From positions 1-40,847 of the forward strand of contig NZ_BAOL01000004.1 in assembly GCF_000350145.1 (NCBI RefSeq): a stretch of 40,847 nucleotides of DNA, given 5' to 3'. The translations under genes and the position numbers were made by a program. Of this stretch, positions 4,398 to 39,559 are shown piece after piece. This DNA comes from Ilumatobacter nonamiensis YM16-303. Lineage in GTDB: Bacteria; Actinomycetota; Acidimicrobiia; Acidimicrobiales; Ilumatobacteraceae. The number at the start of each line of letters is the position of its first letter. Position 1 is the stretch's first letter. The notes under the pieces are model-generated. The model was given only the letters and a program-made list of their open reading frames with translations, made no database searches and was not told the DNA's origin.

Positions 4398-4404
4398 AAG
4401 GAGG
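4398..4404 (+). promoter_or_regulatory. Strong Shine-Dalgarno for the integrase
   Basis: AAGGAGG lies 5 bases before the ATG at 4410 and fixes the start of the recombinase gene. Confidence 0.8.
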
Positions 4405-4409
4405 ACACC

Positions 4410-9506: not shown

Positions 9507-9560
9507 CGCGCCTTACGCCGCGGTTGAAACATCCGGCGAGATGCAGCCGTACCGGTCGGA

Positions 9561-19492: not shown

Positions 19493-20672
19493 CCATTTGC
19501 GTCAGTACTCACTCTCCGAGTACGAGTCGGTCGACATCGAGATCGGTCCGAAGGTCGCGGCCGACATGCACGCTGACGGGCACGTGTCCGTGGCGCCATC
19601 GCTCGCGCCCGGGTTTCACACGATCAAGGCCAAACACAAGGTTGGCGTCCTTCGGTACGGCGGCGTCGAGCTCCGCATTGTCCCCAAGGTTGCAGTCAGC
19701 CGTCTGCTCTACCTCGCCTCGTACAGCCACGACTCCAGCGCGTGGGAAGAACTCGACACTCTGCTCGGCGCCGCCGATGATCCGCTCTCAGCACTCGCGC
19801 ACGCACTGGCGTACCACGGCGAAGCTGCGCTTCGGCCGACGCCGATTCAGGGATACGTCACCCACGAGGAGGCTGAGCGGAGACTGCGCGGCCGAGTCCT
19901 GTTTGATCGACAACTGAGTCGGCGCGCCGGGATTCAGTTGCCCATCGAGCTCCGATACGACGAATACGAGGTCAACGTCGTCGAGAACCGTGTTCTCAAG
20001 ACGGCGTTCGGTCTGGTCGAACGGCATACTCCCGATCCCGCCCTGTCCCGCCGTCTCGCCCACCTTCGCTTTCGTCTCGACGGCGTCGAACCGTGGCCGA
20101 CGGGGATGAGCGTTCCCGCGTTTCACTTCACTCGATTGAACGACCGCTACCGCGCCTCCCTGGCGCTCGCTCGTTTGATCGTCGAGCAGGGCTCACTCGA
20201 GTTTCCTGACCGAACACAACGAGGATCCGCCTTCCTTTTCAATATGAATCACGTCTTCGAGAAGTACGTCGAAGCTGAGTTGCGACGGGCGCTTGAAAGC
20301 CGTGGCGGTCGGGTGGTCGGCCAGCGACAGACCTTCCTCGACGAAGCAGACACCGTGGCGATGAAGCCTGACGTCACCTGGTGGTCTGGCGATCACTGCC
20401 TTGCGGTGATCGACGCCAAGTACAAACGAGCCACGAGCGACGATTTTCCCAACGCAGATGCGTACCAGATGCTCGCCTACTGCACCCGGCTCGGCCTACG
20501 GCGAGGCGTACTTGTGTATGCCGATCTCGGCGACACGATCCATGACTCCACGACCATCCGCAACGCTGGCGTCGAGATCGTCACGACAGCCCTCGACATC
20601 AGTGGCTCAATCGACGACCTACGAGCGAACGTGACTGCACTCGCCAAGGTGGTGACCGCACCAGCATCGTAA
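19464..20672 (+). CDS. mcrC: McrC-type nuclease subunit, first McrBC system
   Basis: This 402-residue protein has the McrC layout: an N-terminal beta domain (RYGGVELRIVPKVAVSRLLY) that docks on the McrB ring, the family segments LRGRVLFDRQLSRR and YDEYEVNVVENRVLKTAF, then FNMNHVFEKYVEAELRRAL, and a C-terminal PD-(D/E)xK nuclease with MKPDVTWW and LAVIDAKYK (about 298-322), where the Asp, Asp and Lys are the catalytic set. It is the cleaving subunit, activated by McrB-driven translocation. ATG at 19464 is chosen; GTG at 19461 is adjacent and also in frame. It overlaps mcrB by 29 bases, so the two are coupled. It ends 217 bases from the convergent operon. Confidence 0.9.
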   Translation: MRLATTLRADHLRQYSLSEYESVDIEIGPKVAADMHADGHVSVAPSLAPGFHTIKAKHKVGVLRYGGVELRIVPKVAVSRLLYLASYSHDSSAWEELDTLLGAADDPLSALAHALAYHGEAALRPTPIQGYVTHEEAERRLRGRVLFDRQLSRRAGIQLPIELRYDEYEVNVVENRVLKTAFGLVERHTPDPALSRRLAHLRFRLDGVEPWPTGMSVPAFHFTRLNDRYRASLALARLIVEQGSLEFPDRTQRGSAFLFNMNHVFEKYVEAELRRALESRGGRVVGQRQTFLDEADTVAMKPDVTWWSGDHCLAVIDAKYKRATSDDFPNADAYQMLAYCTRLGLRRGVLVYADLGDTIHDSTTIRNAGVEIVTTALDISGSIDDLRANVTALAKVVTAPAS

Positions 20673-20889: not shown

Positions 20890-22179
20890 TCACACTGCCT
20901 TCCACTCTGTCGTGAACTTCTCCACCCATCGGGTCAGTCGCCCCGTGTTGTCCTCGCCGGCGACGAGTCTGCCATCGGGCAGGAATGCTGTTGCACAGCG
21001 ATCGGTAATCAGCTCCATCTCGATGCCGTTCATCGCGACGAGTCCCGTATCGAGCAGTCGATCCTGCAGTGTCGCAGGCTCTACGGAGTGCTCGTCGAGG
21101 TAGGTCAGGAAGTCCGGGTCGTCGAAGAAGACTTGGCTGCCTCGACAGAGTTGAGTGATCACCACAAACTCCTCCTCGCTGAGTACGGCCGGCTCCCACG
21201 GCTCTCGACCAGGCGTCTCTGCAAGCGTCGCCTCGTCCAACTCAACCCACTGAAGATTCCAGCCCATCTGCGTCCCCTGCTGCGTGCCCTCGGCCAGGAG
21301 GAATGGGCTGAGGACGTCCACCGACAAGTCCTCGCCCCATAGTCCGCCAATCCCGAACTCCAGATCGAGGCGCGTCCATACGTACTCGAGCAGGAGAAGC
21401 ACGGGATTGAGGCGAGAGGAGAAGTAGAACGGCCACCAGTTCCCGTGCAGTCGGGCCGAGTAGGGCTGCCCGTTGGCCTTGCCCACCGAGAATCGCCCGG
21501 AGATCATCAGCTGAGGGAAGGATCCCGGACCGTACCCGAGAGTGCCAATGTTCACCTTGAGATGATCCAGCAGGGACTTCCGAAAGGCCTCTTCGGTTGC
21601 ATACCCGTGGTAGCCGAGGACAACTCCGACGGGAGCGAGTTGCTCCCCCACGAGCGCATGGAAGATCAGCTGCGAGGAGATCGGTAGAGAGCTGAGTTCC
21701 TCGTAGTCGGGTGCGACCGTCCTCGTTGTCTCGGCGAACGCTCGTTGGGCGGAACCGATGTCCACGGTCCCCGCGCTGTTTCGCAGCGCGATCTTGTACG
21801 CAGAGTCGAGATCCCGGATGGAGCGGAGCTTGGCGAAGGCGTCGACAAGCTGGTCGTGATACAGAGTCTTCTTCACCTCGAAGACGGCGATTACATCCTT
21901 CACCGGCCAGACAAAGCTGTCCGTGTACGGGATGACGTCACCTTCCCCTCGCACAAGCATGCAATCGACTTGGCCCGATCTGTTTCCGAGTCCGTCGGTG
22001 ACGAACCCGTTGACGATCTGCAGTCCGAGTTGCGGCGGAACAGCTCGCTCCAGAAGCTCCGCAGACAAGCCTTCGTACATGCTGCCGATGGTTGGACCGT
22101 GCTCGATCTCCATGGCGTCGAGTCGCGCGGCTTCTGCGTCCTTGAGCTCACCAAGGAAGTCGGCGACGGTAGTGATCAT
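20890..22179 (-). CDS. DUF6602-like protein with PD-(D/E)xK-type motif
   Basis: This 429-residue protein resembles DUF6602 proteins. The diagnostic part is at about residues 62-105: RSGQVDCMLVRGEGDVIPY, then VWPVKDVIAVFEVKKTLYHD. The Asp of QVD and the E-V-K of FEVKK fit the D...ExK core of the PD-(D/E)xK nuclease fold. The C-terminal half is mixed and ends with a tryptophan-rich segment. The ATG overlaps the mcrC stop (ATGA), so it is translated with the second McrBC and is the last gene of the eight-gene array. A nuclease or DNA-binding accessory role is inferred; the family has no established function that I know of. Confidence 0.65.
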   Translation of the reverse strand: MITTVADFLGELKDAEAARLDAMEIEHGPTIGSMYEGLSAELLERAVPPQLGLQIVNGFVTDGLGNRSGQVDCMLVRGEGDVIPYTDSFVWPVKDVIAVFEVKKTLYHDQLVDAFAKLRSIRDLDSAYKIALRNSAGTVDIGSAQRAFAETTRTVAPDYEELSSLPISSQLIFHALVGEQLAPVGVVLGYHGYATEEAFRKSLLDHLKVNIGTLGYGPGSFPQLMISGRFSVGKANGQPYSARLHGNWWPFYFSSRLNPVLLLLEYVWTRLDLEFGIGGLWGEDLSVDVLSPFLLAEGTQQGTQMGWNLQWVELDEATLAETPGREPWEPAVLSEEEFVVITQLCRGSQVFFDDPDFLTYLDEHSVEPATLQDRLLDTGLVAMNGIEMELITDRCATAFLPDGRLVAGEDNTGRLTRWVEKFTTEWKAV

Positions 22180-23429
22180 TCGCAGCTCGGTGGGGCTGTT
22201 CCAGCCGTTGGGTCAATCGAGGGGCCACGTTCGATTGGATCAGGGTCGGCACGATTAGTCCTGGTCGCCAAGACGATCCGACCTGCGAGCGCGGACATGT
22301 CCCTCTCGAGATCAGCAGTCGGTTGATCCAGGTCGACGGCGTGGGCGACAAGGCGCACTCCGGCTCGGCGAACGACATGGACCGCAGGGTCCTCCGCGCC
22401 TTTCGCGTACACGAGGTGGCCCTCTGGCAGTCCGAGTGCCGTGCAGTAGGCAAGCAGTTGGTAAAGGTCTGCGTTGGGGTAGCCGGCCGGCTTCTCCGCC
22501 TTGTACTTGGCATCGATGACGGCCACGGGCTGTCCGCCCCGATGCCAGACAAGGTCCGGGTTCATTTGGACGCGGCCCGCCGCGTCGAGCGTGTGCGGGT
22601 CCTGCGCAACGACGTGGCCGTCGATGCCCTCGAGCGAGGACGAGAGCGCGATCGTGACGAAGTCCTCGAACACCTTGGGCATGTCGACCATGAATCCGTT
22701 GATCTCGATCGACCCGGGTGGAAGGTCGACCGAGTGGTGCCGGAGGACGAGGTCGGCGAACCAGAGCGATGTCTCGTAGTGAGTGTTCCGTCGGTTCGGT
22801 CGCCACGTCGGCAGCGGGGCGCCGAAGGGCAGGTCGGTGACGGCGGCGAGTCGATCAAGGATGGTGCGGAGTTGCCGTCTGACCTGGGCGTCGAGATCTG
22901 GGAGTGTGTGCAGGACTCGACTGGCGGCTTTGAGGATCCGGTTCTCGGCGACGTCGGGAGTGAAGTCGTCGTAGCGCACGAGCAGCGGGGTGATCTGGCT
23001 GAAGCGCCGGGTGACTTGCTCGGTTGACCGAAGCCTCCCGCGAACGACAGCAAGTTCGTCGTCGCGCTCGACGTAACCGTGGATCAGCCCGCGGCCGAGT
23101 GCCCGGTCGGCTTGTCGAGCGAACGATTCGGCGATCACGTGGACGAGACCCGCCGCTGAGTCATACGGCACGAGGTCGTCGCGCCATGCGAGATTGCGTC
23201 CGTAGCCAAGTAGGTAGAAGAGCCGATGGATCGACACCTTCGGCCGGGCACGCACCACCATGTCGCCGATTCGGGCGACGCCAACCTTGCCAGCACCGCT
23301 GACCTCCCACGCACCATCTACGCCAAGCCGAACCGTGACCAGCTTGCTCTGTTGAAGCAGCCCGGCCTGGCTGTTCGTGAGCTGGTATGTCCGGCCCGGG
23401 CCGGTCTCAACGACCTCGACTTCGATCAT
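22176..23429 (-). CDS. mcrC: McrC-type nuclease subunit, second McrBC system
   Basis: This 417-residue protein is organised like the first McrC but clearly divergent from it. An N-terminal beta domain contains VGVARIGDMVVRARPKVSIH and RLFYLLGYG. It continues with VVRGRLRSTEQVTRRF and YDDFTPDVAENRILKAASRV, then MVDMPKVFEDFVTIAL. The nuclease core is MNPDLVWHRGGQPVAVIDAK with YK following (about 290-311), giving the PD...DxK catalytic residues, and then NADLYQLLAYC. Its ATG shares a base with the mcrB stop (TGATG) and its own stop overlaps the next start (ATGA). Both junctions indicate coupled translation. It should cleave DNA bound by the McrB encoded just upstream. Confidence 0.9.
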   Translation of the reverse strand: MIEVEVVETGPGRTYQLTNSQAGLLQQSKLVTVRLGVDGAWEVSGAGKVGVARIGDMVVRARPKVSIHRLFYLLGYGRNLAWRDDLVPYDSAAGLVHVIAESFARQADRALGRGLIHGYVERDDELAVVRGRLRSTEQVTRRFSQITPLLVRYDDFTPDVAENRILKAASRVLHTLPDLDAQVRRQLRTILDRLAAVTDLPFGAPLPTWRPNRRNTHYETSLWFADLVLRHHSVDLPPGSIEINGFMVDMPKVFEDFVTIALSSSLEGIDGHVVAQDPHTLDAAGRVQMNPDLVWHRGGQPVAVIDAKYKAEKPAGYPNADLYQLLAYCTALGLPEGHLVYAKGAEDPAVHVVRRAGVRLVAHAVDLDQPTADLERDMSALAGRIVLATRTNRADPDPIERGPSIDPTAGTAPPSCE

Positions 23430-25303
23430 CAGGTGTCGCTTGTTGGCTCAGCGACGGGCGAGGGAAGCTCGGACGAATCGACTGACTCAAACACCGGGTT
23501 GTTCGACGCCTCGAAGCGACCGCTGCCCGAACCAATCGGTGCAGCGTCGCTGCCGACCTCTGCCCACAGGCGATCGAAGTCGAACCGCGAACCCAGTGAT
23601 GACCATCGGTCGTAGAACGTCTCTTGCAGGAGCGGTTCGATCTGCGTGCGGAACACGCGACGCATGCGAGCCGCGGACTGGTCGTCGTGCATGAAGTACG
23701 ACGGGCCAATGTGCGCGTCACGATCGTCGATCAGGGAGTTCGTCAACTTGAGCAGCTCAGCTGACATGGCTGGCAACTCACGCTCGGCAAGCCACTTCGG
23801 CAACATCGACTTCGTGGGTTCGGTGGCGGGGTGGAGCTCGAGAAACGCGAAACGTCGACGCATCGCCGAATCCAAGAGGGCGATCGAACGGTCGGCGGTG
23901 TTCATCGTGCACATGAAGTAGAGGTTCTTCGGAAGCGTGAACGGTTCTCCGCCGTACATCACCTCGACGGCATCGTCGCGGTACTCGAGGAGGAAGTACA
24001 GCTCGCCGAACACCTTGGCGATATTGGCCCGATTCAACTCATCGATGATCATTACGAACGCCCGCTCGGGATGGTCTCGTGCCTCGCTGGCCAGTGCACG
24101 CAGCGGGCCGGGTCGCAGTTCGAGCGACACTGTTCCCGAACGATCGTCGCCGCTCGGTCGGTATCCCTCGAAGAAGTCTTCGTACGTGTAGGACGGGTGG
24201 AACTGCACGAGTCGGACACGCTCGGTTCCCACGAGGTTCTCAGCGATCTTGCGCGCCAGGTAGGTCTTGCCGGTGCCAGGTGGCCCGTACAACACGATCT
24301 GGCGCGAGTCGTTGAGGAGTTCGACGAAGTCGTCGAGCCACTGCGATGAGACAAGCAGCTTCGTGGCTACATCGGCAGGGAGCGGGTCGAGTCGCCGGTG
24401 ACGGCGGCGCTCGGCCGCCAGGTCGTCGGCAGCTGAGTCCACGTCGTCATCGGCCGAGGTGAGATTGTCGATGATCTCGAGTTCGCCGGTGAGATCGGCG
24501 ATGGTCGATCCAGTGCGGAGTTTGGCCTGGAGGGTGGCCGCAAGATCGGCGAAGTCGACGCCCGCCTCCGGATTGCGCCACGAAACCGGCCGCCGCAGAT
24601 TGGATCGGCCGTCCTCGGAGGACTCGTACTCCGAGGCACCTTCGATCTCGCCGACGAAGACCCCGCTCTCGCTCGTCGTCAGAACGAGATCGCCGGGCTT
24701 CATCCGGCTGATGAAGTCGACGATCTCAGCGACTTTGGCGACCCGTTCCTGATGCTTCAGGTGCGCGTACGCAGCCTCGGCGAGCGCCGCAATCTCATCC
24801 GGCCCGGTCTCCGACGTGATCGCTGGCAGCTGCGAGGCCGCCAAGCTGCACCACCCTTCGTCGAGCCAACGCGGAACAAGGCTCGCACCCAACACCGACG
24901 ACCCGCGCACGAGCCACGCCCGTTGCGATTCGTCCGCCCGCGCGAGTCGAGCTGACTTGCGGATCTTTCGGGCACGTTGGCGGATCTCGTTCGCGAACGC
25001 ACGAGGGTCAGCGATCTCGCCGAGCATCGATGTGCCTGCGTCGGTCACCGACCAGGTGCCCGATCCGTCCTTGGCCATCACGCCGGTCTTGACGAGGTCG
25101 CTCGTTCCCCAGGCGACATAACTCCACCACCGCTCTTGTCCGTTGGACTGGATCTCGATCTCGTGCGGGTCGGTGGGCTGCCATTCCTCGCGGAGCGCCG
25201 CTTGGACATCGCTGCGTTGAAGGGTCCCACCGGCGTCGACGAGCAGCTCGAGGATCGGTCGCATCGTCCGCGTCTGCCATTCCGTCGCCGTCACCGTCGT
25301 CAT
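23429..25303 (-). CDS. mcrB: McrB-type AAA+ GTPase with Mrr-N-like winged helix and PUA-like reader
   Basis: This 624-residue protein has three parts. Residues about 10-90 resemble the Mrr N-terminal winged helix (WWSYVAWGTSDLVKTGVM, then GTWSVTDAG). Residues about 195-240 contain a PUA/EVE-like strand pattern (FISRMKPGDLVLTTSESGVF followed by VGEIEG) likely to contact modified DNA. The AAA+ domain has YGPPGTGKTYLARK (about 338), LVQFHPSYTYEDFFEGYRP, MIIDELNRANIAKVFGE (about 418) and MCTMNTADRSIALLDSA (about 461). It is the translocating subunit of the second modification-dependent restriction system. The ATG at 25303 lies 95 bases after the previous gene, the only real gap in the eight-gene array, so it may have its own promoter. 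Its reader region differs from that of the first McrB, suggesting a different target. Confidence 0.88.
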   Translation of the reverse strand: MTTVTATEWQTRTMRPILELLVDAGGTLQRSDVQAALREEWQPTDPHEIEIQSNGQERWWSYVAWGTSDLVKTGVMAKDGSGTWSVTDAGTSMLGEIADPRAFANEIRQRARKIRKSARLARADESQRAWLVRGSSVLGASLVPRWLDEGWCSLAASQLPAITSETGPDEIAALAEAAYAHLKHQERVAKVAEIVDFISRMKPGDLVLTTSESGVFVGEIEGASEYESSEDGRSNLRRPVSWRNPEAGVDFADLAATLQAKLRTGSTIADLTGELEIIDNLTSADDDVDSAADDLAAERRRHRRLDPLPADVATKLLVSSQWLDDFVELLNDSRQIVLYGPPGTGKTYLARKIAENLVGTERVRLVQFHPSYTYEDFFEGYRPSGDDRSGTVSLELRPGPLRALASEARDHPERAFVMIIDELNRANIAKVFGELYFLLEYRDDAVEVMYGGEPFTLPKNLYFMCTMNTADRSIALLDSAMRRRFAFLELHPATEPTKSMLPKWLAERELPAMSAELLKLTNSLIDDRDAHIGPSYFMHDDQSAARMRRVFRTQIEPLLQETFYDRWSSLGSRFDFDRLWAEVGSDAAPIGSGSGRFEASNNPVFESVDSSELPSPVAEPTSDT

Positions 25304-25398
25304 GCAACGACATTACGTGCTGGCCCTCCGACCATCCGGGAGAACGCGATGCGGGCGTCAGTGCGAACTGGCGCACCCGCAGAACGGTCGCCGCATCC

Positions 25399-26541
25399 TC
25401 ACTCGTCCGACGCGGCGACGTCGAGGTCCTCGACGTCGACGATTCCGGCGTCGACCATGGCGTCAAGGAGCGGCCCAACGCGATCAACCACCATCCGCTC
25501 AACGTCAGCCGCTGAGTTCGGTCGCAACGGGTACCGCTCTTCCAGTCGTCGCTGAACCTGCACAGCCAGCTCTGCGACCGCCTTGTCACGTTCGGCGCGC
25601 ATCTCACGGGCGGCCTTGGCATCGTCGCGATCGTCGAGCTCGGCTCTGAGCACGTCGCCCTCGAGCCATGTCTTCCGCTGCAGTGGGATCTTGGCGAGTT
25701 CGCGGATCGTGAATCCGATCACCGACGGCAACGCGATCACTCGGACGATTTCGGAGACGGTCAACACCACATCTGCCGGCGACGCGACCGACAACCGCTC
25801 GACGACCGCAGGTGCCGAGTATCTCCCAGCGCCGGTCGGTCCGACTGCGGTGTTGGCGATTGACCGAAGCTCGTCGACGAGTTCGAAGACGGAATGCAGC
25901 CGGCGTCCGAGCTGGTCGGTGGTCGGCGGCTCGGCATCGTCGCGTGTTCGGAGGCGGAAGCCGAGCGGAACGGTCGGGGCGGGTTGGCCCACGGCGAGGT
26001 CAGCGAGGGAGACCAGCCCTGCGAACTGGATCTCCATCATCGGTGGTTGTGCACCGAGATCGACTTCGACGACTCGGCCCGACTGCTCGACGCCGGATTC
26101 GAGGAAGCTGATGCTCACGTCGTCACCGGAGCGGGCCTTGATCTGCGCGAGCCCGGTGGCGTACTCATCATCGACGAAGCGAAGTACGGCTCCGGCCTCG
26201 CCGACGGCCTCGACGCTGGCGTATGCGGTCCAGAGCCGGCTTCCCTTGGCCACGAGAAGGCGAACCCCCTCACCGCGCTCGAAGAACGGGTACCGAGGAC
26301 TCGCCCCGAGATCCTCATGCCGTGATGCCGCTCGTGCGACGTCGAACCGGTTGATCGAGATGTAGCGGTTGTAGCCCGCATCGGCGAGGTGCCGGTAGTG
26401 CGTGAGCATCCGCATCGATACCGGTCCGTAGCCGGCGGTCACCAACCGCTCATTGAGATCATCGAGCCCGATCTCGCCGCCAGCACCGCGATAGATCTGG
26501 TACCCGGCGCGAGCGTCGCGGGGTGAGGCGTTCCTTGTCAC
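25399..26541 (-). CDS. Hypothetical protein of the DISARM-like array
   Basis: This 380-residue protein is of an unrecognised family. Residues about 20-65 are helical and could be a small winged helix (LDDLNERLVTAGYGPVSMRM, then YRHLADAGYNRYISINRFD). Residues about 80-165 look like one or two small beta barrels (VRLLVAKGSRLWTAYASVEA, then VSISFLESGVEQSGRVVEVD). The rest is mostly helical with a charged coiled segment (AAREMRAERDKAVAELAVQV) and an acidic end. GTG at 26541 is chosen because it overlaps the previous stop as GTGA, matching the coupling seen at other junctions; the frame is open further upstream but lacks protein character there. No catalytic motif is seen. It might be an adaptor or regulator for the helicase-methylase genes before it or the McrBC genes after it. 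Confidence 0.65.
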   Translation of the reverse strand: MTRNASPRDARAGYQIYRGAGGEIGLDDLNERLVTAGYGPVSMRMLTHYRHLADAGYNRYISINRFDVARAASRHEDLGASPRYPFFERGEGVRLLVAKGSRLWTAYASVEAVGEAGAVLRFVDDEYATGLAQIKARSGDDVSISFLESGVEQSGRVVEVDLGAQPPMMEIQFAGLVSLADLAVGQPAPTVPLGFRLRTRDDAEPPTTDQLGRRLHSVFELVDELRSIANTAVGPTGAGRYSAPAVVERLSVASPADVVLTVSEIVRVIALPSVIGFTIRELAKIPLQRKTWLEGDVLRAELDDRDDAKAAREMRAERDKAVAELAVQVQRRLEERYPLRPNSAADVERMVVDRVGPLLDAMVDAGIVDVEDLDVAASDE

Positions 26542-27437
26542 GGTCCGGCCTGTCGGGTCGGAAGTCGGGGCGAACTGGAGAGCGTCAGTCGACGCGCGGA
26601 TAGATCCTCCGTCCAGTTTCTGTCTTCGTAGAGCACCACTGCGGACGCAGCGCCGAGGGGCTCGACCAGCACAATTACGTCGCTCAGGGCCAGGCCGACC
26701 GAAGCCTCTCGCGCCGCTTCCCGCGCAACCCATGCATTCGACATCGAGATATCTCGGTCCTCGAGGACGAGGACTGTGCGTGCGGACGCATGTTCGAGGA
26801 GCTTGGGCAGCTTGGCCCTCAGCGCACGTTCGAATCGTGTTCGGCGAGCTTCTGCCTGCTCGGCGTCGGATTCGCTGATCCCGACTCCAATCGAGAGACT
26901 TCCGCCTCCGGGGCTCGTCTTGGGCGGCCAGGCGTACAGCTTTATGGGAAAAGGCAAGTCTGGAGGGCCACCCTCGACGAAGTGATTCGGCGCTGTCGCT
27001 GCACTACCAGGTAGGAGGTCAGGTGCCACGTGTCGAACCCATTCGCCGACGCGCCGATGCACGTCATCTGGTTCGAGAGACTCGTCCGCAACGGCTCCGA
27101 TTCCAATCAACAGGTTGTAGCTGCGGTCATGGGGAAGCTCGCCGGCAAGCTGCCCGGTAAGCGGAGTGAGGAGCTTCTCGATCTGCCGGTGCTCGTGAAG
27201 TTGCTGCTCGTAGCTCTCGATGGTCGTGTGCTCTAGCGCAAGCATGCAGCCGTCGGCGCACGTGGCAACGAGGTCGATGAACTTCTGGCCCTGGGGCGCT
27301 CCGGCTGTGTTCAAGGGATCGTCAGGGTCATCCCAATTGGAGAGCGGTGCCAGTCCGTCACGAATGGCGAGTGCTTCCGCCACCCGTAGGCAGAGTTGCG
27401 AGTCCGCCTTGAGCGGAGTGAATTCATCCGGCGTCAT
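26538..27437 (-). CDS. Hypothetical protein with possible degenerate nuclease-like motif
   Basis: The protein has about 299 residues and an unrecognised family. At about 46-66 it reads GQKFIDLVATCADGCMLALE followed by HTTIESYEQQ. The order Asp, spacer, Leu-x-Glu-x-Thr resembles a PD-(D/E)xK core with Lys replaced by Thr, so activity is doubtful. A later part contains KLPKLLEHASARTVLVLEDR and SVGLALSDVIVLVEPLGAAS, alternating strands and helices as in a Rossmann-like or nuclease fold. ATG at 27437 overlaps the methylase stop by 14 bases; a GTG at 27488 in the same frame is an alternative. Its stop overlaps the next start by 4 bases. Its position directly after the methylase suggests an accessory part of the helicase-methylase system. 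Confidence 0.6.
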   Translation of the reverse strand: MTPDEFTPLKADSQLCLRVAEALAIRDGLAPLSNWDDPDDPLNTAGAPQGQKFIDLVATCADGCMLALEHTTIESYEQQLHEHRQIEKLLTPLTGQLAGELPHDRSYNLLIGIGAVADESLEPDDVHRRVGEWVRHVAPDLLPGSAATAPNHFVEGGPPDLPFPIKLYAWPPKTSPGGGSLSIGVGISESDAEQAEARRTRFERALRAKLPKLLEHASARTVLVLEDRDISMSNAWVAREAAREASVGLALSDVIVLVEPLGAASAVVLYEDRNWTEDLSARRLTLSSSPRLPTRQAGP

Positions 27438-30400
27438 GTCTGGGGCCGCTGCCGGGGGGTGGGTCGAGAGGGCTCTCGTAGGGGACACCGGTTTCGATGG
27501 CGCGTTGCATGGCGTGGTACTCGCCGAGGATCACTTCCAGAGTGCGGAACCGACCGTGGGACTCGTCGTCCTTGCGCTGCACGACATGGAAGTTCGCCAT
27601 GATTCGATGGACTTCCGGCGGGGACAGCTCGTAGAGCAGGAAGAAGCCAGCGTCGAGTTCCGTCCTGATGACCGTCCTCCGACCCGCATCCCAACGGAAT
27701 GGCGCGCTCGCGTCCCCGAGTTCCTTAGCGGCGCCGTCCAGTTGGATAGTTGTGTAGAGGAGCTCCCAAGCCCTTACTGCGAACCATCTGCCGACGCTCT
27801 CCCCAGGACTCCATGGGCAGGGGTCCCCAAGCCTCTTGCGGTGGACGACCGGGATTTGGTTGAAGTAGCCGTACGTGAGGTGCGTCCCACCTTGCCGCAA
27901 CCGAAGGCACCAATCGGTGGCAAACGAAGAGAGCATGGCTACGAGAAACAATCCGTCTTCGACAGTGGGTTCACCGAACTGCAGCAACGGCCCAGTGTGG
28001 CCAACCCCGTACCGCGGCAGCATGCATGGGATCACGGTGCGCTCGTTATACGACCGGGCTACGTCTCGGAAAGCGATAAGCCAATCTCGGTCCCATCGTT
28101 CCCGAAGTCGTCCCTCGACTTCGGGAGCTTCCACCCAGTAACGGGGCTGGTTGGCATAAGCCGGATTGTCCAGAACTGACACGTCGACGCGGGGTAGTTC
28201 TGAGTCGCCAACTCCCTCCGCTCGCATCGCATAATCACCCCACCTCGGGTTGAAGTGGTTGAACATCTTCCCTTCGAGAAGGGGTACGTACTCGACGTTG
28301 CCCAAACGGAATCGGTCGGGGCGCACACGTTCGGCCCCGCTGTCGAGCAACTCCGATGTCGTCGTGAACAACCCAGAGTCAGTGCTCATCTCGAAGTGGC
28401 GCTGATAGCGGACGTCCCAGCCCGAGAGCCCAGGCTCGGCATCAAGTCGAAGGACGGGCAGCCGATCGTGCACCCCGAGCAGAATTCTGGCGTCATCGCG
28501 CGTTCGGAAGAGCGGCGCCGACTTCGTGTTCGGATTGATCCTGGCAATCTCGGCGCTCGTCAGCGTGAATCGCCGCCCGGGCTCGCTGAGAGTGGCAGGG
28601 CCCGCGAGGAATGAACCAAAGTCGGCTGGTATCTCGAGGTCGCCACTACCCGACAACACCATGATGCAGAATTTGAACGTCCGGTTGCCAACGCCGTAAA
28701 AGAGCCGGTCGTTGTTCAAGAAGTCGTAGAAGACGCGAAGCCGACCGCTGTCGAGGACCGCTCGAAAGAACGGCTGCGTGTTGTTGTCCGTCGCCAGGCC
28801 GGTCGGCGCAATGATTCCGAAGCGACCGTCCGAGCCGGTCACGCTTGTGCCGTGCTCGGCGAACAGCGGGTAGGTGTTCACGTCACCGCGGCCGCACAGC
28901 GGGAACCGCCCGCTCTTCCGAAAGAAGTGACTCACAGCTTCAGACCCGCGACGAGCCACGGTGTAGCGCTCGTGAAGTGCCGGGGCGCTCTCGCGAAGTT
29001 CCTCGACCAGGCGTTGACGCCTCGCTGCGTTCGGTGCCCCAGCAATGTCCTCGCGCCCGACAGCGCTGAAGAACTCCTTGTCCTGCAGCTTCGTGCGTTC
29101 CCAGGGGGGATTTCCAACCACACACGAAAAGCCGCCACTCCAACCCGGACCTCCGATGCTCTCGTCGACTGTAAGGATCTGTGGAAACTCGAGGTGCCAG
29201 TGGAAGAAGCGGTACTCGGTGGCCGTGCGTTCGACCAGGCGTCGCAGTGAATGATCGCTCGGAGGTAGGTCACCCTGGTACCACGTCCGCAGTGTTGAGT
29301 CGGTGATGGCCTGATCTGTTTCCGACTTGGGAATCATGAACGCGGCGCACCAAGCGTCGGCCAGGAACCGGGCGCGGCCAAGCTCCGTGGATGAATCGAA
29401 TTCCCGCTGTCGCCGCTGTGCGAGGTGCACGCTCACCAGGTCCAGCGCTCGGAGAGCTTCGATCTCGCGGGCTGCATCGGCGAACTTCTTGTTGCCGACT
29501 GGAACGCCAGCGGCCGAGAAGAGATCGTCCTGGCCGGCCCGTTCTGCCTTGTTCCGCTTCTTCAGCGCGCTGACAACCTGCTTGTCGTCGCCGTCGAGCG
29601 CTGCGAACGCTTCATCAGGGACCCCAGCGGCGAGCAGGGTAGGAGTCGCGCCGAGCAGAGCATTGCCAACTTTGATGTGGGCGTCGAGGAAGCTGAGTGC
29701 ACGGCCAGGCTGAACGCTCTCCAGCCACAGGCTGACCTTGGCAAGCTCGGCGGCAAGCGGGTTGAGGTCGACGCCATAGATGCAGTGATCGACCACGTCG
29801 TGCATCGCCGCTTGCTCGTCGAGCGGTGTTGGCTCCTCCGCTCCCTCGGCCCTGGCGCGCACCGTTGCCAGTCGAGCAGCGATGCGTTTGGCCGCAGCAA
29901 CAAGGAAATGGCCCGAGCCGCACGCCGGGTCGCACACCGTCAAGCCGAGGAGAGCCTGCTCAGGGTCAGCGGCCTTCTCGGCGTCGTCGAGCAGCGGGTC
30001 GAGTGCCGAGTCGAGCAGGCAATCGATCAGCGACGTCGGTGTGTAATACGCGCCCGACGTCTTGCGCTCATTACCCACCACCGACTCGAGCGAGAACGTA
30101 CGCTGCGACGTGTCGTACCGCGGCATGAACTCGAGCAACGACTCGTACACGCTCCCGAGCTCCTCGGCGCCGAGGCTGCGATAGTCGACCCGCCGCTTAG
30201 GGCCGCCACCGGCCGGTTGCACAACTGTCAGATGACGAACGGCTTCGAGCAGCGCCGCGTTCGAGAGCTCGAGGTCGCGGACAATGTCGGACTTGCCCAG
30301 CTCGAAGATGCCACCAAGGCCCGGAATGCCAAGTTCCGGTCGACCTCCCTCGCTGCCCAGGCCGTCGAGCACGAGCCGCAGCGAGTGCCACAGGTCGGAG

Positions 30401-31458: not shown

Positions 31459-34337
31459 GACGCCGCTCCCGTCGGGAGGAGCACGTACACACCGACGACG
31501 TCGACGGGGGTGACCGCACGGACGCTTAGCCCGCGCTTTGCGGCTTGCGCGCCTTCGCGGACCCGCCGGTGAGCGGCGAGCAGCTCGTCCGCGCTCGTAC
31601 GCGCCATCCCGTCGAGATGCTCGGAGAGTTCGTCCAAACCATCGAGGACCCGTTGCAGGGCGTGCGCCTTCGTGTCGGCCGGGACATTGGCCGATGGCTC
31701 CGCATCTAGCAACTGCACCGTCGCGTTGTCGGCGAGCCATGTTGCGTTCGCCGGTGCGCCCTCAAAGGCGACGGTCACCGCATCTTCGGTGACCACCGTG
31801 CGGACTCCGGTTGTGCCGGGCAGGTCGAGATGGAAACGCAATCGAACCACGAGCAGCGTCGTGCGCGTTGACACCGCATCCGTGCGCATCACCCCGGCGC
31901 GCGTCGCCGGTCGATGAACACCGGGCCCGAGCGCCTGAGCATCGAGCGTGGCATCGAGCACGAACCGAGCCACCGCAGCGACATGTGCATCGGTGCGAGC
32001 CAGCAGCGCCTCGCGACGAGGCACCGGGAAGTCACGGTGAAACGGCAGTGGCTCGCGGTGGCCCGGTGGCAGGGCATCGCGCAGGCCGATCGGCAGTGTC
32101 GCCGTGTGAGTAACGAACCCGTCGACCTTCGGATCGGTGGTGACACTCGCACCGAGCGCTCGCAGCGATTCGCGTGTGAACTGCTCGACATCGGCGTGGC
32201 GGCCAAGCGCCGCGCGCGCCGCGGACACCTCTCGCTGTACGTCATCGGGGTGGATTGCGCCCTGGGCGTACTTGGTCTGCGATCGACGCTCGCGCTCAGC
32301 GGCGCTCTCCCACTCACGATGAAGGTCGTCGCGCTGGGTCTGCATCCCGAGGTCGAAGGTGAGCTGGCTCGGGTCGCGCTGGCCGCGTAGAATCAGGCCC
32401 TCCATCAACGCTTCGACGACGCTGTCACTCCGATCGGGGACGGGCACCGCCACACCCGTCGCTCTCGAGATCTCGCGGTGCTTGCGAATCAGGACGTCAA
32501 GCACGATGCCGTCGATCTGGTTGTCGATGCCGAACAACGTGGTGGCACGCACGATGTCGCGCCGCTGGCCGAAACGGTCGACTCGTCCCTCGCGTTGCTC
32601 GTGGCGCGTCGGGTTCCAGGCCAAGTCGTAGTGGACGACCGCTTGGAAATGCTCCTGCAGGTTGACCCCCTCGGACAGGCAGTCGGTTGCGACGAGCACG
32701 TGGCGGCGATCGGGGTCGGCGGTGAGTTCGTCGATGCGGGCGATGCGCTCGGCGGGCGGTAGCTCGCCGGTGACCGCCGCGACGCTGACGCCTTTGCCGA
32801 GGCCCGCGGCGAGGTGCTCGGCGACATATCCCGCAGTTGGGATGAACCGGCAGAACACGATCGGATCGAACCCGTCTTGGAGGAGGCCCTTCACCTCGCT
32901 GATCAGTGCCTTGAGCTTGGCATCGCCCTTTGGTCCCGCGAGTTCTTCGGCCTGCACGGCGAGGCCCAACAGTCGCCGGCTTTGTCGCAAGTAGTCCTCG
33001 CCCTCGTCGTCGTCGGCGATCTCGGAGGCACCGGCGACGAGATCGGCCGACTCGATGGCTTCATCGACGCCCGTGTCGAGAACGGTCTCTCGCCCGATGG
33101 CGTCGACCTCGGCGACCGATGCGGCATCGGCGGCCTTCGCCCTTGTTCGTAGAGTCGCCGCAGCTGCCGGTGGGGACGACGCCAAAGATCGAAGCAGCGC
33201 AAGCGCTGACCACCATCGCACTCGCTGGCGAACCTGTCCCGTCGGTGAGTCGGGGTCGGCGACCTGCTCTCGGGCAAAGTCGACCACCTTGTCAAACAAC
33301 GCGCGGTAGTCGGCCGTCAGCTCATACGGAGCGTCTTTCGTCTCGCGATCGCTCGGAAACGCCGTCTCCTCGTCGAGGTAGTGGCGAATGTCTGCCCGGC
33401 GACGTTGCACGAAGTGGCGTGCAAGCTTGGTGCGTCCCGCAGCCGTTTCGAGGTCGATCGTCGCCAGCTCGGGGTCGAGCAGGCCGATCAGATTGCGGAA
33501 CCCCTCTTCCTTGCCAGAGTGCGGGGTCGCCGTCACGAGCACGAGGTGTCGAGATGTATCGGCGGCAACGTCTTTCAGCAACTCGTAGCGCTGCGTGCGC
33601 GCACCTGCCGCTACCGATTCCGACACAGCTCCGTGTGCCTCGTCGACCACTACAAGGTTGGGGCAGTGATTCAGGAACTCCTGGCGTCTGGTGTGTGACT
33701 TGATGAAGTCGGTCGACACGACCACGAAGGGGTACTTGTCGAACAGCGACTCGTTGAGCATCAACCCGCGAGTCAGCTTCGTCACGGTCGACGGCAGCAC
33801 CAGTTCGGCCTCGATCGCGAACTTCTCGCGCAGCTCAGATTGCCACTGCTCCGCTAGCGCCGGGCTACACAGCACGGCCAGTCCGCTCGCATCGCCCTGG
33901 GCGAGCAGCTCGGTCACGATCAGACCCGCCTCGATTGTCTTGCCGATTCCGACGTCGTCGGCGATGAGCATGCGCACCGGCTCCTGCCGCAACGCCATCA
34001 TCAGCGGAACGTACTGATAGGCGCGGGGCTCCACGGCGAGGCCGGCGAGCGAACGGAACGGCCCGGCAGTCGAGCGAAAGCCCAGCCGGAGCGCCGTCCG
34101 CAGCATTGAGGCGCTCGTCGCATCACCGAGGTCATCGACGGTCGGCGGGGCAAAGCTTGCCTCCACCACCTCCTCCAGCGCAGGGAACACTGCGGCAGTG
34201 TCGTCGTCGCCGCCGCCGAGTGGTCGCACGATCAAGAGATCGGGTTCGCTTTCAGGGAGCACCACCCACTCGCGGCCACGAGTGCGCACGAGTGCGCCCG
34301 GCGCGAAGGAATGCGTTGGGCTGACGGTGTCGGTCAT
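31455..34337 (-). CDS. drmD: SNF2-family helicase, DISARM DrmD-like
   Basis: This 960-residue protein is a superfamily 2 Snf2/RapA-type ATPase. Motif I is LIADDVGIGKTIEAGLI (about 121-137), motif II VVVDEAHGAVS (about 227-237), motif III LVTATPHSGKEEGF, and the C-terminal lobe has VLVATDCLSEGVNLQEHF and RVDRFGQRRDI. Its C-terminal 300 residues form an uncharacterised helical and beta region. Its ATG at 34337 overlaps the previous stop (ATGA) and its own stop overlaps the methylase start (GTGA). A SNF2 ATPase coupled to a large adenine methylase is the hallmark of DISARM class 1, where DrmD fulfils this role. It probably translocates on double-stranded DNA. Stand-alone helicases of this type also exist, so the name rests on context. 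Confidence 0.82.
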   Translation of the reverse strand: MTDTVSPTHSFAPGALVRTRGREWVVLPESEPDLLIVRPLGGGDDDTAAVFPALEEVVEASFAPPTVDDLGDATSASMLRTALRLGFRSTAGPFRSLAGLAVEPRAYQYVPLMMALRQEPVRMLIADDVGIGKTIEAGLIVTELLAQGDASGLAVLCSPALAEQWQSELREKFAIEAELVLPSTVTKLTRGLMLNESLFDKYPFVVVSTDFIKSHTRRQEFLNHCPNLVVVDEAHGAVSESVAAGARTQRYELLKDVAADTSRHLVLVTATPHSGKEEGFRNLIGLLDPELATIDLETAAGRTKLARHFVQRRRADIRHYLDEETAFPSDRETKDAPYELTADYRALFDKVVDFAREQVADPDSPTGQVRQRVRWWSALALLRSLASSPPAAAATLRTRAKAADAASVAEVDAIGRETVLDTGVDEAIESADLVAGASEIADDDEGEDYLRQSRRLLGLAVQAEELAGPKGDAKLKALISEVKGLLQDGFDPIVFCRFIPTAGYVAEHLAAGLGKGVSVAAVTGELPPAERIARIDELTADPDRRHVLVATDCLSEGVNLQEHFQAVVHYDLAWNPTRHEQREGRVDRFGQRRDIVRATTLFGIDNQIDGIVLDVLIRKHREISRATGVAVPVPDRSDSVVEALMEGLILRGQRDPSQLTFDLGMQTQRDDLHREWESAAERERRSQTKYAQGAIHPDDVQREVSAARAALGRHADVEQFTRESLRALGASVTTDPKVDGFVTHTATLPIGLRDALPPGHREPLPFHRDFPVPRREALLARTDAHVAAVARFVLDATLDAQALGPGVHRPATRAGVMRTDAVSTRTTLLVVRLRFHLDLPGTTGVRTVVTEDAVTVAFEGAPANATWLADNATVQLLDAEPSANVPADTKAHALQRVLDGLDELSEHLDGMARTSADELLAAHRRVREGAQAAKRGLSVRAVTPVDVVGVYVLLPTGAAS

Positions 34338-37300
34338 CGACCGTTCCCTTGTCCGAAGACAGAGGGATGCAACTTCACCACGCTGGACCAATCGTCGTCA
34401 TGGCGTACCCGCACGACATGCCAGCCGGCATCGAGTAGCCGATCCTCGGCCGCTGCGTCGCGGGCGGCGGCGTGGTCGGTGTCGTGGTCCGGGCCATCGA
34501 CGAACACGGCGACATCGAGACCCGGCCGGTCATAGACGAAATCGGGTCGAGCACGGGCACCATCCACCGTGACCTGAGCCCGGTCGGGGAGGCGGAATCC
34601 ACCATCGTGCAGGAAGTCGAGGAAGCGCCGTTCGAGTGACGAGTCGGCGAATGCGCTCAGATAGTCGATCGCCGCATCGGCCGATCGCCCGCCGGCACCG
34701 GTGGCGGTCACCGAGCCGGCGAGGTCGAGCAGCAGATCGCGCACGAGCGTGCGATCGATGAGGCTGTGCTGGAACTGGTTCGAATAGCTCAGGAGGCAGT
34801 CGTAGCAGCCCTGCACGCATCGTTCCGTGACGCCTTCGGCCGCGCCGAGATCTTCGCCAGTGCCCGAATCGAAGTGGCAGATCTCGAGCGCCGATCGTGC
34901 CGCTCGGGCGAGCGCGGTCGGTTCGATGACGAGCCGGCGCAGCACGCCGGCGCCGCCCTCGGCCGACTCCGTCAGCAGGAAGCGCCCCCGTTCGTCGAGG
35001 TCCGGAAGCGGCTGAGTCGTGAGCTCAGAATCCTCGAGCTGGAACTCAGCCTCGATCCCGCGTTCGAGCGCGTACTGCAGGCTGATGGCGGTGGCATCGT
35101 CGAGTGATCGGGAGAAGCGAGCAACCACGATGTTGCGCGTGTCCTCGACGTACGGGATCACCTTCTTCCGTGTCTGCACGTCGTCGGCACCTTCGAGATC
35201 CCCGTCGCCACCATCGTCAGCGCCGGACACTGCCGAATCGCTCAGCCATCGGCCCTCAACCGTGTGCAACCAGTAACCGCGATCGTCGCGGTCCTTGCGG
35301 CGACGGCGACCGATGTTGGCCACCCGGATGGTCGCTGCGTCGCCGTAGGTGAGGTCCATCACTTCGGTGTCGTCGGCATCGTTCACGGCGGCAACCAGCT
35401 TGTCGGGGCGATCGGCACGGGTCGAGAATCGGTAGCTGACCTCCAACTCGAAGCCACTGCGCCGCCGTTCCTCTTCGTCACTCGAAATGCGCTCGCGACG
35501 TCGAGTGTGGACGGTCTGCAACCGGATCAGATCGTAGGTCTTCGCCCCGAGGCGAGCGTCGCACAACTCGCAGCGATCGAGGCCGTCAGCATCGATGTGG
35601 TGATAGCCGCACGCCTGACACCGCAATGCCGTCTCGGTCGCGACCTGACCGGGTTCGTCCGCGCTGCGCGGGAGCTGGATGCGGTTGACGACGAAGCGAG
35701 CGCCTTCGTGATAGATGAGCGACCCAGGACCGAACTCACTGATCGCGAGGAATCGTGGTCGCTGCACGAAGTCGCCGCGCTGGTCTCGACCGGCCTGGCG
35801 CCGGCTACCCGGGATGTATGCGGCCAGCGGGAGCCGGGGGAACGAGTAGCCGGGAAGAAACCCCTCGGATGCGAGATAGCGATACGGGTAGAAGTCGGTC
35901 TGGCCCTCGGACGCATCGTCGTTGCGCAATACTGACAGTCGATCGCGAGCTTCCCGTTCGCGCGCCGCTGCGATGTTGCGCACGTACTTACCGGCGGTGG
36001 TGTCGACTGCGAGGCGGCCCTGCTCGCGGTATTCGTCCATGGCTCCCCGGTACAGGTCGCGCCAGCGGTCGAATGCGTCGTCGAGGCGCTGCGGAGCGAA
36101 TCGGAGCGTGTCGCCGAGCCAGTCGTCGGTGAACCACAGCGGCACTCCGCCCGACGCATCCCACGTCTGTCGCAGGTCGTCGAAGAGATCAATCGCCGCA
36201 TGTTCGGCGCGCCGTCGCGCGTCAGAATCGAGCAACCTGACCATGATCTCGGGTTGAATGTCGAGCGACGCCTCGTCGCCATCTGACTCGAGGACGTCGG
36301 TGATCGAGGACTTCATCGACTGGCCAGTTTCGGCCAACCAAATTGCGTTCACGTGGGAACGGATGAGTTCTTCGTTTGCGAGATCGAGGCGTGGCGCCTG
36401 CACCGAACCCGACACCATTTGATCGCTGCGGCGGAACCAGTACGAGTCGTGGCTGTTACCCGTTGAGCAGTAGGTCACGACGAGCGCAGGTTGCCCGGAT
36501 CGGCCAGCGCGGCCGGAGCGTTGGGCGTAGTTGGCCGGCGTGGGTGGGACGTTCCGCATACCCACCGCGTTGAGGCTGGCGATGTCGACACCGAGCTCCA
36601 TCGTCGGCGAGCAGAACAGCAGGGGCAGCTCGCCGGACCGGAACTCGTTCTCGCGCCGTTCGCGCTCGACGGCTTGGACCTGTGCGGTGTGTTCCTTCGC
36701 CGTCATGCCCACGAGGGAGGTCGCCACATCGCGATACAGATCGCGGAAGAACGGATTGACCCGCGATGTGGCCTCCGGATTCAGATGCTTGCGCAGCGCG
36801 TCTGTCGCTCCGTGTGTGCCGTCGCCGGGCAGCCACCGGATCGATGCAGCGCGCAGTCGATAGCCACGTTCGATCGGCCCCCGGCCGCGTGGCCCGACCG
36901 CAACGTCGACCTCAGCCAAGACACCATTGTCGGTCAGGTTCTTCAACACCAGATCGATCGCATTCTGTGCCTCGTCGGTAGCGAGTGATCCCGATGCTTG
37001 ACCCAACCCCTTCGAGCCGCGCATGTAGCGGCCGAGGCCGCCGCGCCAGGTCAGGTTGAGAACGCCACGCCCGAGGCCGGGTCGACCAGGTTGGGGAATG
37101 GCAACACCGACATCCTCGAGCTGCTCGTTCTCGCCGATCTGCCACTGCGCGTTGAGGCGCTGGCGGCTGGTCCGCTGGAGCTGCTCGAACCCGTGAGCAC
37201 TCAGGCAGTCCACGTCGATCGCCAAGACGCGCCTGAACTCGTCGAGCAAGATGCCCATGAGCTCGGCCCTCAGCGCGGGTGGCGCTGCGGCGAGATGAGG

Positions 37301-39559
37301 GTCGATCTGCCAGATCTGCTCGGCTTCGGCGAGCTGATCTAGGCCGATGTACTCGACACGCAACAACCCGACCTGTTCGAGGTTGGGCATCGTCACGCGC
37401 CACCCGCGCTTCAGATCAACGTAGAGCCGATACTCGATGACGTGGCGCAGGGCGCTCATCGTCTGGTCGTGGCCGATGATCGCATCAGGTGCTGCGGAGA
37501 AGTCGCTCGGCCCGAGCGCAAGTGCCTCCGTGACACGGTGCGCAACCGACTCGTGGGTGAGACCGTCCGGCGCGTCCGCAAGCGCTTCAGCAAGAGCGCC
37601 ACGCAGCAACGAGACCTGAACGAAATCGTTGAAGTGACCGGCCTGAAGCGAGGCGTCCTGGCGATTGTCCACGAAGGTGAGCAGCTTGCGTGCTTCGTCG
37701 GCGAGATCCTCGGCCTGGCGCAAGCTTCGAACCACGCTGGTGCTCACGACCGTCATCGCCGACGAACGACCCTCCTGGTCGAGCGTGGCGAGCTTTGAGA
37801 AGTCATTGCTTCGTGGCTGGTCGTAGGTGACACCGCAACGAAGACAGAACGAGAACGGTGTCGAGATGAACCAGGCCGGAACGTCCTCGGCAGCGTCGGT
37901 CTTTACGCCGTCGGGCCGCACGTGCACCTTGGTCGGGAGGTATTTCTTGCGCACCGGCAACACTTGAGCCGAGTTGTCGTCACCTTCACTCGTCCAGTGC
38001 TCGGGCACCCGACCCTCAGCGAGTGGATCGAGTGGCCACGGATAGTCCGTCGAGATGTAGAGGTAGCCGTTGACCGCATCGCCGCCCGAGGCATCTGCGT
38101 CGCGCCGGGCAACGAAGGTTTCCTGGCCATACGGAGCGGTCTTGGCAACGACGTAGTACTCCTGGCCACACTCCCGGCAGAATCCGAGCGGAAGGAGCAC
38201 CTTCTCGGAGTCGTCGGGTACCCGCACCTGGTAGCGGTCGGTGAGATACCGGTCGCCTTCCGCTCCGATGCTCGCGTAGACGGTGTCCCCCTTCGACAGG
38301 AACTGGTGTAGTCGGAACGCGAAGATCGGGCGACCGTTGGGCCCCCGAAGCGATGAGCCCGCAAGCAGCGTCGACTCGATCGCCATCCGGCATTGGAAGG
38401 CAGAGCGACCGGTGAGCTCGGCGAGGCTTTCCGACGCTGCGGTCACAGTCGTCGGCCGTTGCCGAGCGAGTTCGCCCGAGGACGGACCTGCGGCGATTCC
38501 GAACGTCGACTCGACCCAGCGTGCAAGCGGATCGTTGACGAACTCGCCCACCTCGGTGGGTGGGTTCGCGTCGATCGCCCGTCGAAGCTCGTCCGCCGAT
38601 GCCGGTTGCTCGTCGGTGGCCCTCAGGAGCGTCTCACCGATCACATGGTCGGGGTCGACCCGAGTCCCGAACAAGCGCGTCGCAACGTCGGCCACGAGTG
38701 CGGCCTGGTCGGTTGCCGACCCTTCGGTCGTCATCGTCGCTGACGTGCCCACGACTTGGAGGGCGGGTGACTTACACGCGCTGCGCACCCGGCGGATCAG
38801 CATCGCCACGTCGCTCCCCTGGCGACCTCGATAGGTGTGTAACTCGTCCAGGACGAGAAACTCGAGACCCTCGGCAGCCCGAATGAGGTGCTTGCGCTCG
38901 TCGGGCCGCGTCAGGACGAGATCGAGCATGACGTAGTTCGTCAGGATGATGTCGGGCGGATGCGCCAGAATCTTGGCTCGATCGTCGGGGGTCTCCTGCC
39001 CCGTGTAGCGAGCGAACGTGACCGGCTCGTTGCCGACGCCGAAGCCGAACTCCAAGAACTTGCGCAGCTCATTCATCTGGCTGTTCGCAAGCGCGTTCAT
39101 CGGATACACGATGATCGCCCGGACCCTGCGCTCGTCGGGCCGTTCTTCTTTCGCCCGGATCACCCGATCGACGATGGGCGCAATGTAGGCGAGCGACTTT
39201 CCGGAACCGGTGCCAGTCGTGAGGACGTACGAGCTGCCGGTCCGAGCCGCTTCGATCGCTTCACGCTGATGGCGATGAAAGCGAATGGGCGAGCCAACCC
39301 CTGTATCCAACTCGCTGTCCTTCACCCGGAAGACCTTCCCTGACGTGGGATGAAGGAGGCCGGCGGCCACGAGTTCGTCGACGGATCCACCCGTCGCAAA
39401 GTTCGGGTTGAGTGAGAGCCAGGGTTGAGGCCACTGTCGCCCTTCGGTCGATCGTTTCTCCAGTAATTCTGCAATCCGATCGTCACGCGCCTCGACGAAC
39501 GACGAGGTGAACGACTGATAATCGCGGACCAGCTGATCCCGCACCCCAAACACGTCCAC
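34334..39559 (-). CDS. Giant DEAD/DEAH helicase with DUF1998 and C-terminal nuclease-like domain
   Basis: This 1741-residue protein combines parts usually split between DISARM DrmA and DrmB. A superfamily 2 helicase has motif I VLTTGTGSGKSLAYIAP (about 112-128), motif II LVLDELHTYRGR (about 233) and motif VI in NYAQRSGRAGRSGQPA. Zinc-type pairs occur in FCRECGQEYY and FCLRCGVTY. The C-terminal DUF1998 region has CQACGYHHIDADGLDRCELC (about 1312-1332) and the cysteine cluster RCVQGCYDCLLSY (about 1578-1590), as in MrfA/YprA-like helicases. The last 100 residues (LERRFLDFLHDGGFRLP, then ARPDFVYDRPGLDVAVFVDG, then DAGWHVVRVRHDD) look like a Vsr/DUF559 PD-(D/E)xK nuclease. Druantia DruE is an alternative relative. 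It starts at GTG 39559 with no evident ribosome-binding site and heads the eight-gene array. Confidence 0.82.
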   Translation of the reverse strand: MDVFGVRDQLVRDYQSFTSSFVEARDDRIAELLEKRSTEGRQWPQPWLSLNPNFATGGSVDELVAAGLLHPTSGKVFRVKDSELDTGVGSPIRFHRHQREAIEAARTGSSYVLTTGTGSGKSLAYIAPIVDRVIRAKEERPDERRVRAIIVYPMNALANSQMNELRKFLEFGFGVGNEPVTFARYTGQETPDDRAKILAHPPDIILTNYVMLDLVLTRPDERKHLIRAAEGLEFLVLDELHTYRGRQGSDVAMLIRRVRSACKSPALQVVGTSATMTTEGSATDQAALVADVATRLFGTRVDPDHVIGETLLRATDEQPASADELRRAIDANPPTEVGEFVNDPLARWVESTFGIAAGPSSGELARQRPTTVTAASESLAELTGRSAFQCRMAIESTLLAGSSLRGPNGRPIFAFRLHQFLSKGDTVYASIGAEGDRYLTDRYQVRVPDDSEKVLLPLGFCRECGQEYYVVAKTAPYGQETFVARRDADASGGDAVNGYLYISTDYPWPLDPLAEGRVPEHWTSEGDDNSAQVLPVRKKYLPTKVHVRPDGVKTDAAEDVPAWFISTPFSFCLRCGVTYDQPRSNDFSKLATLDQEGRSSAMTVVSTSVVRSLRQAEDLADEARKLLTFVDNRQDASLQAGHFNDFVQVSLLRGALAEALADAPDGLTHESVAHRVTEALALGPSDFSAAPDAIIGHDQTMSALRHVIEYRLYVDLKRGWRVTMPNLEQVGLLRVEYIGLDQLAEAEQIWQIDPHLAAAPPALRAELMGILLDEFRRVLAIDVDCLSAHGFEQLQRTSRQRLNAQWQIGENEQLEDVGVAIPQPGRPGLGRGVLNLTWRGGLGRYMRGSKGLGQASGSLATDEAQNAIDLVLKNLTDNGVLAEVDVAVGPRGRGPIERGYRLRAASIRWLPGDGTHGATDALRKHLNPEATSRVNPFFRDLYRDVATSLVGMTAKEHTAQVQAVERERRENEFRSGELPLLFCSPTMELGVDIASLNAVGMRNVPPTPANYAQRSGRAGRSGQPALVVTYCSTGNSHDSYWFRRSDQMVSGSVQAPRLDLANEELIRSHVNAIWLAETGQSMKSSITDVLESDGDEASLDIQPEIMVRLLDSDARRRAEHAAIDLFDDLRQTWDASGGVPLWFTDDWLGDTLRFAPQRLDDAFDRWRDLYRGAMDEYREQGRLAVDTTAGKYVRNIAAAREREARDRLSVLRNDDASEGQTDFYPYRYLASEGFLPGYSFPRLPLAAYIPGSRRQAGRDQRGDFVQRPRFLAISEFGPGSLIYHEGARFVVNRIQLPRSADEPGQVATETALRCQACGYHHIDADGLDRCELCDARLGAKTYDLIRLQTVHTRRRERISSDEEERRRSGFELEVSYRFSTRADRPDKLVAAVNDADDTEVMDLTYGDAATIRVANIGRRRRKDRDDRGYWLHTVEGRWLSDSAVSGADDGGDGDLEGADDVQTRKKVIPYVEDTRNIVVARFSRSLDDATAISLQYALERGIEAEFQLEDSELTTQPLPDLDERGRFLLTESAEGGAGVLRRLVIEPTALARAARSALEICHFDSGTGEDLGAAEGVTERCVQGCYDCLLSYSNQFQHSLIDRTLVRDLLLDLAGSVTATGAGGRSADAAIDYLSAFADSSLERRFLDFLHDGGFRLPDRAQVTVDGARARPDFVYDRPGLDVAVFVDGPDHDTDHAAARDAAAEDRLLDAGWHVVRVRHDDDWSSVVKLHPSVFGQGNGR

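Follow-up and report, generated by a model that had tools for sequence, protein, structure and literature searches.

Organization of the locus

The window, meaning the whole 40,847-nucleotide stretch of Ilumatobacter nonamiensis YM16-303 DNA that was analysed, contains eight intact genes (g1-g8) that run in one direction, all on the minus strand, between positions 39559 and 20890 (Table 1). The junctions are ATGA for g1/g2 (overlap 4 bp, 34334-34337), GTGA for g2/g3 (31455-31458), a 14-bp overlap for g3/g4 (27424-27437), GTGA for g4/g5 (overlap 4 bp, 26538-26541), a 95-bp gap between g5 and g6 (mcrB), TGATG for g6/g7 (overlap 1 bp, 23429), and ATGA for g7/g8 (22176-22179). The first-pass annotation had described eight co-directional genes joined in this way; every position matched, and its domain assignments agree with our domain searches. 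The catalytic motifs of g1, g2, g3, g6, g7, and g8 are all preserved. Start codons are predictions, and longer in-frame starts are present for g2, g3, g4, and g5; the annotated start of g5 is supported because its homologues begin at the same point.

Table 1. Genes of the array and the one intergenic gap, with positions in the window.
Feature	Predicted product or nature	Positions	Strand	Details
g1	YprA-family helicase, ARMADA YprA/ArmC-like	34334..39559	minus	RecA1/RecA2, MZB/DUF1998, weak Vsr-like match at C-terminus
g2	SNF2/RapA-like helicase, ARMADA ArmA-like	31455..34337	minus	BrxHII/DrmD/DpdE-like; Walker A and DEAH intact
g3	PglX/DrmMI-like N6-adenine DNA methyltransferase, ARMADA ArmB-like	27424..31458	minus	Assigned by domain searches
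g4	Orphan family, possible PD-(D/E)xK-like fold	26538..27437	minus	D55 and E69-H-T71 conserved
g5	Helical N-terminal domain, PilZ-like barrel, C-terminal helices	25399..26541	minus	From predicted model
g5-mcrB gap	95 bp	25304..25398	minus	No sigma-70-like promoter and no terminator found; predicted RNA fold ordinary
g6	McrB GTPase	23429..25303	minus	Mrr_N, PDC-S02-type middle domain, AAA with NxxD (MNTAD)
g7	McrC nuclease	22176..23429	minus	PD-(D/E)xK intact; PF10117
g8	DUF6602 protein, NucC-like nuclease core	20890..22179	minus	D72, E103, K105; about 300 further residues

From the overlaps we infer that g1-g8 are jointly transcribed. The scan for sigma-70-like promoters found none in the gap and none anywhere in the array, so its result says little in a genome of such high GC content. 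Only 1.3 kb of contig lies upstream of g1, and a gene upstream of g1 could therefore be missing. The complete eight-gene order had no second occurrence in the genomes examined.

Other defense genes are present in the window. PADLOC models identify the Gabija genes GajA and GajB at 5453-9053, and on the plus strand another McrB-McrC pair (16715-20672) converges on the array. A DUF4379 treble-clef zinc finger protein is encoded at 15306-16526, just upstream of this second mcrB. On the McrC tree g7 and the second McrC are far apart, and they were rejected as recent duplicates. The region 4380-14633 encodes an integrase, a helix-turn-helix protein, and a relaxase of the TrwC type with a helicase, which suggest an integrative mobile element as the carrier of the defense island.

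Identity of the helicase-methylase core

ARMADA Type I usually has the order YprA, BrxHII-like, and PglX-like, and ARMADA has two genes in common with DISARM, while its YprA helicase is closest to Druantia (PMC12458937). In PADLOC the nearest model was Druantia DruE for g1, DpdE/DrmD for g2, and DrmMI for g3, a DrmMI/type IIG-like methylase. Because these placements and the gene content and order match the published description (PMC12458937), g1-g3 are assigned by sequence to ARMADA Type I. The g1 protein has DEAD, Helicase_C, and zinc-binding MZB domains and is 39-72% identical to YprA genes of other ARMADA loci. At its C-terminus there is a weak match to MTES_1575 (Vsr-like), at 19.1 bits below the Pfam curated cut-off of 38.2, and D1673 is kept in 97% of 71 C-termini. 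In g3, residues about 1058-1340 were judged from relatives to form a separable C-terminal domain resembling a target-recognition domain.

The core had earlier been read as DISARM-like. It is ARMADA Type I instead: the MZB/DUF1998 part is fused in g1, and the array has no gene for the PLD nuclease DrmC. ARMADA Type II was also rejected, as its gene order differs and the array is without a RelE-GajB gene; the GajB at 7128-9053 in the window pairs with GajA outside the array. Type II stops phage without killing the cell, and all of its genes are required (PMC12458937). In the literature searched, ARMADA activity has been shown for Type II only, in E. coli (PMC12458937), and we found no experiment on ARMADA Type I or on the g1-g8 operon.

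Co-inheritance of ARMADA and McrBC

Genes g6 and g7 carry the motifs of canonical (type IV) McrBC, with MNTAD, GPPGTGKT, and D..DAK. CoCoNuT was rejected because g6 has NxxD rather than the CoCoNuT NxD motif. A DISARM-like cassette containing YprA has been reported as frequently associated with canonical McrBC (PMC11090510, PMC12458937). The adjacency of ARMADA and McrBC, which was the central claim of the first-pass annotation, is thus already published.

In 296 sampled genomes of the same class, the SNF2 gene (g2) was present in nine, and g1 and g3 adjoined it wherever the contig allowed. Co-directional McrBC was found in none of the eight other ARMADA genomes of this sample, several of whose loci end early. 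A wider scan of the whole collection was made with a g2 alignment, and the best 80 loci were taken by similarity to the window; almost every one has g1, g2, and g3 side by side. Downstream sequence of 3 kb or more was visible in 65 of these, and in 18 of the 65 McrBC follows the methylase in the same direction (L040-L045, L048-L051, L072, L076, L083, L085, L095, L104, L113, and L116), a proportion drawn from the loci most similar to the window and not a population frequency. In several linked loci the methylase and mcrB overlap by 4 bp. The remaining 47 loci are without McrBC, so McrBC is not essential to ARMADA.

Plasmid pNOCA01 of Nocardioides sp. JS614 has the five genes (g1-g3 and McrBC) in a row, overlapping. 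This plasmid (L186:1-41199) is conjugative; a DISARM operon lies shortly before the ARMADA-McrBC genes, and a pair encoding a UvrD-helicase and an AAA ATPase lies further on. A different ARMADA order, SNF2-methylase-YprA (g2-g3-g1), was seen in genome G272 (L038:3944-16285), where a separate ORF encodes the methylase C-terminus. This is the reversed order described for archaea and cyanobacteria (PMC12458937).

Linkage to McrBC was mapped on a tree of the g2 relatives found in the present survey. It requires six changes, compared to a mean of 16.7 when shuffled, and the window g2 lies within a five-member clade (99% SH-aLRT) in which all members are McrBC-linked. The window McrC (g7) is 61% identical to that of the closest ARMADA-McrBC locus and groups with it (support 100/100). 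Pairwise distances of g2 and McrC are correlated (Mantel r 0.87, with none of 2000 permutations as high), and shared host ancestry may contribute to this value. On the McrC tree, the hypothesis that linked McrC arose strictly once was rejected. Because of the clustering on the g2 tree, the McrC grouping, and the correlated distances, we conclude that McrBC has long been carried with this ARMADA branch. Comparison among loci shows that g1-g3 and g6-g7 are inherited together within one actinomycete branch of ARMADA. The earlier proposal of a composite operon thus holds for these five genes, which are adjacent and co-inherited, and fails for g4, g5, and g8. Two observations had been named in advance as evidence against a composite: no enrichment for adjacency of the parts, and a separate promoter in the gap. 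Adjacency is strongly enriched, and no gap promoter is predicted by a scan that is weak in a high-GC genome.

Genes between the methylase and mcrB

No family match was found in domain searches for either g4 or g5. The g4 model (pLDDT 67) gave XisH at Z 6.4 and YaeQ at Z 4.3, both below Z 8, and no PDB entry was matched significantly by Foldseek alone. XisH and YaeQ are PD-(D/E)xK proteins, and a nuclease-type fold for g4 is only a suggestion of the model; E69-H-T71 stands where ExK is expected. Relatives of g4 are few and scattered, some alone or broken, and none were found in viral contigs or plasmids. In G310 a relative sits two genes behind an ARMADA core that has no McrBC, and another is near a GmrSD_N gene (G350).

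In the g5 model (mean pLDDT 70), residues 83-184 resemble PilZ chains, at a Z of about 11 that stands well above unrelated rows. A c-di-GMP-binding PilZ role was rejected since the motifs are missing: (D/N)xSxxG is absent in six of six aligned sequences, and by eye there is no conserved RxxxR at the start of the barrel. Relatives of g5 turned up in seven further genomes of the class, with one or more weak partial matches among them, and none on plasmids. One is directly behind an ARMADA methylase (G105), two adjoin N6/N4 methylases (G082 and G084), one is near a C5 methylase (G013), and one is near an AIPR gene (G280). These neighbors tentatively place g5 with the methylase half.

Profile searches found g4 and g5 in none of the best 80 related ARMADA loci. 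Beside ARMADA, each has a relative in one distant genome, and no other genome was found with both. In the closest relative of the array (L040) this slot is filled by two other genes, one for an ATPase of 752 residues that weakly matches OLD/AriA-like proteins and one for a protein of 316 residues that was not recognized. Slots between methylase and mcrB were also viewed at L048:11084-12636, L104:16863-17723, L116:18303-19151, and L042:12565-20786. In related loci the slot has free-standing copies of the methylase C-terminal domain, matching g3 residues 1058-1343. L048 has a methylase without this domain, followed by two copies as separate genes, and L042 has two full tandem methylases with 79% identity. 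The free-standing domains look like exchangeable specificity subunits.

The DUF6602 gene

Residues 25-126 of g8 align with NucC (6p7o; E 2e-7), and the catalytic D, E, and K are kept. Full-length relatives of g8 (28-41% identity) occur on plasmids of several genera; in the four that were viewed, neither ARMADA nor McrBC is annotated alongside. In 17 genomes with ARMADA-McrBC, g8 is absent except for one marginal match (E 0.006) that contains a stop. No paper naming DUF6602 was found in the literature searched. The best reading is that g8 is an independent add-on gene, outside the ARMADA-McrBC unit.

Proposed function and alternative explanations

We consider it about 80% probable that the whole array is an anti-phage operon of two layers, carried by a mobile element, in which the genes of one slot are interchangeable and one further gene is an add-on. 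By analogy with ARMADA Type II and DISARM, adenine methylation by g3 would mark self DNA in the first layer, and the SNF2 translocase and the YprA helicase-nuclease with its putative Vsr-like domain would attack unmarked DNA. In the second layer (g6-g7), McrBC would translocate on and cut DNA with modified bases, and may thereby catch phages whose modified DNA escapes the first layer. The slot between the layers would hold exchangeable genes, which in the window are g4, perhaps with a nuclease fold, and g5, whose PilZ-like protein probably works with the methylase half. The g8 gene, with its NucC-like core, would be an independent add-on. Each half should work alone, because ARMADA without McrBC and McrC without detected ARMADA both occur.

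Among the other explanations is one integrated system that cannot do without g4, g5, and g8, which might serve for example as sensors or last-resort nucleases; the first-pass annotation had offered one undescribed eight-gene system as a possibility. Overlapping junctions throughout except at the 95-bp gap, the catalytic residues retained in g8, and the occurrence of g4 and g5 relatives, once each, in another ARMADA operon are consistent with it. We regard it as improbable, because g4 and g5 are both missing from all 80 related loci, g8 is missing from the 17 linked genomes apart from the one interrupted match, the closest relative holds other slot genes, and full-length g8 relatives exist without ARMADA. 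Alternatively, independent defense genes may have stacked by chance in an island, and ARMADA and McrBC would then be functionally unconnected. The Gabija genes and second McrBC pair in the window fit such stacking, and so does the commonness of ARMADA without McrBC, but the repeated co-directional adjacency with overlaps, the clustering on the tree, and the co-divergence make it improbable. The g1-g2-g3-McrBC arrangement is not chance, as it recurs in many genomes with similar overlaps.

In a further reading, ARMADA Type I and McrBC could be a single co-evolved actinomycete system in which the slot is a cassette site that tunes the methylase, with g5 as a partner. This we think unlikely, if less so than the integrated system or chance stacking; were it true, exchange of the slot genes, whether C-terminal domain copies, a second methylase, or g4-g5, would alter specificity. 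It is similarly doubtful that g4-g5 is a small separate system of two genes that inserted in the slot, for instance a restriction or toxin-antitoxin unit. The 4-bp overlap of the pair, its absence from relatives, and the GmrSD_N-domain gene near one g4 relative point that way, whereas relatives of g4 and g5 occur separately and were never found together elsewhere.

The array is best called a known composite, ARMADA-McrBC, with an unusual group of extra genes. Attacks on unmodified and on modified DNA appear to be inherited as one operon, which makes layered defense directly testable, and the variable slot may supply or switch specificity. For the g4 and g5 families and the NucC-like g8, no described function was found in the sources searched.

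Comparison with known systems

NucC is a CBASS nuclease, and g8 shares with it the aligned nuclease core. In contrast to NucC, g8 has its long additional region, and no cyclase gene was recognized in the array. DISARM Class I has the same types of YprA helicase, SNF2 helicase, and adenine methylase; in the array, however, DUF1998 is fused to the helicase with no separate DrmB, and there is no DrmC-type PLD gene. The published McrBC-ARMADA association likewise has canonical McrBC beside a DISARM-like cassette with a YprA-like helicase, but in the array g4-g5 part the two halves and the DUF6602 gene follows. With ARMADA Type I the array shares a YprA-like helicase in first place, with a weak Vsr-like match at its C-terminus, a BrxHII/SNF2-like helicase, a PglX-like methylase, and a location that is often on mobile elements; it differs by the addition of g4-g5, McrBC, and g8.
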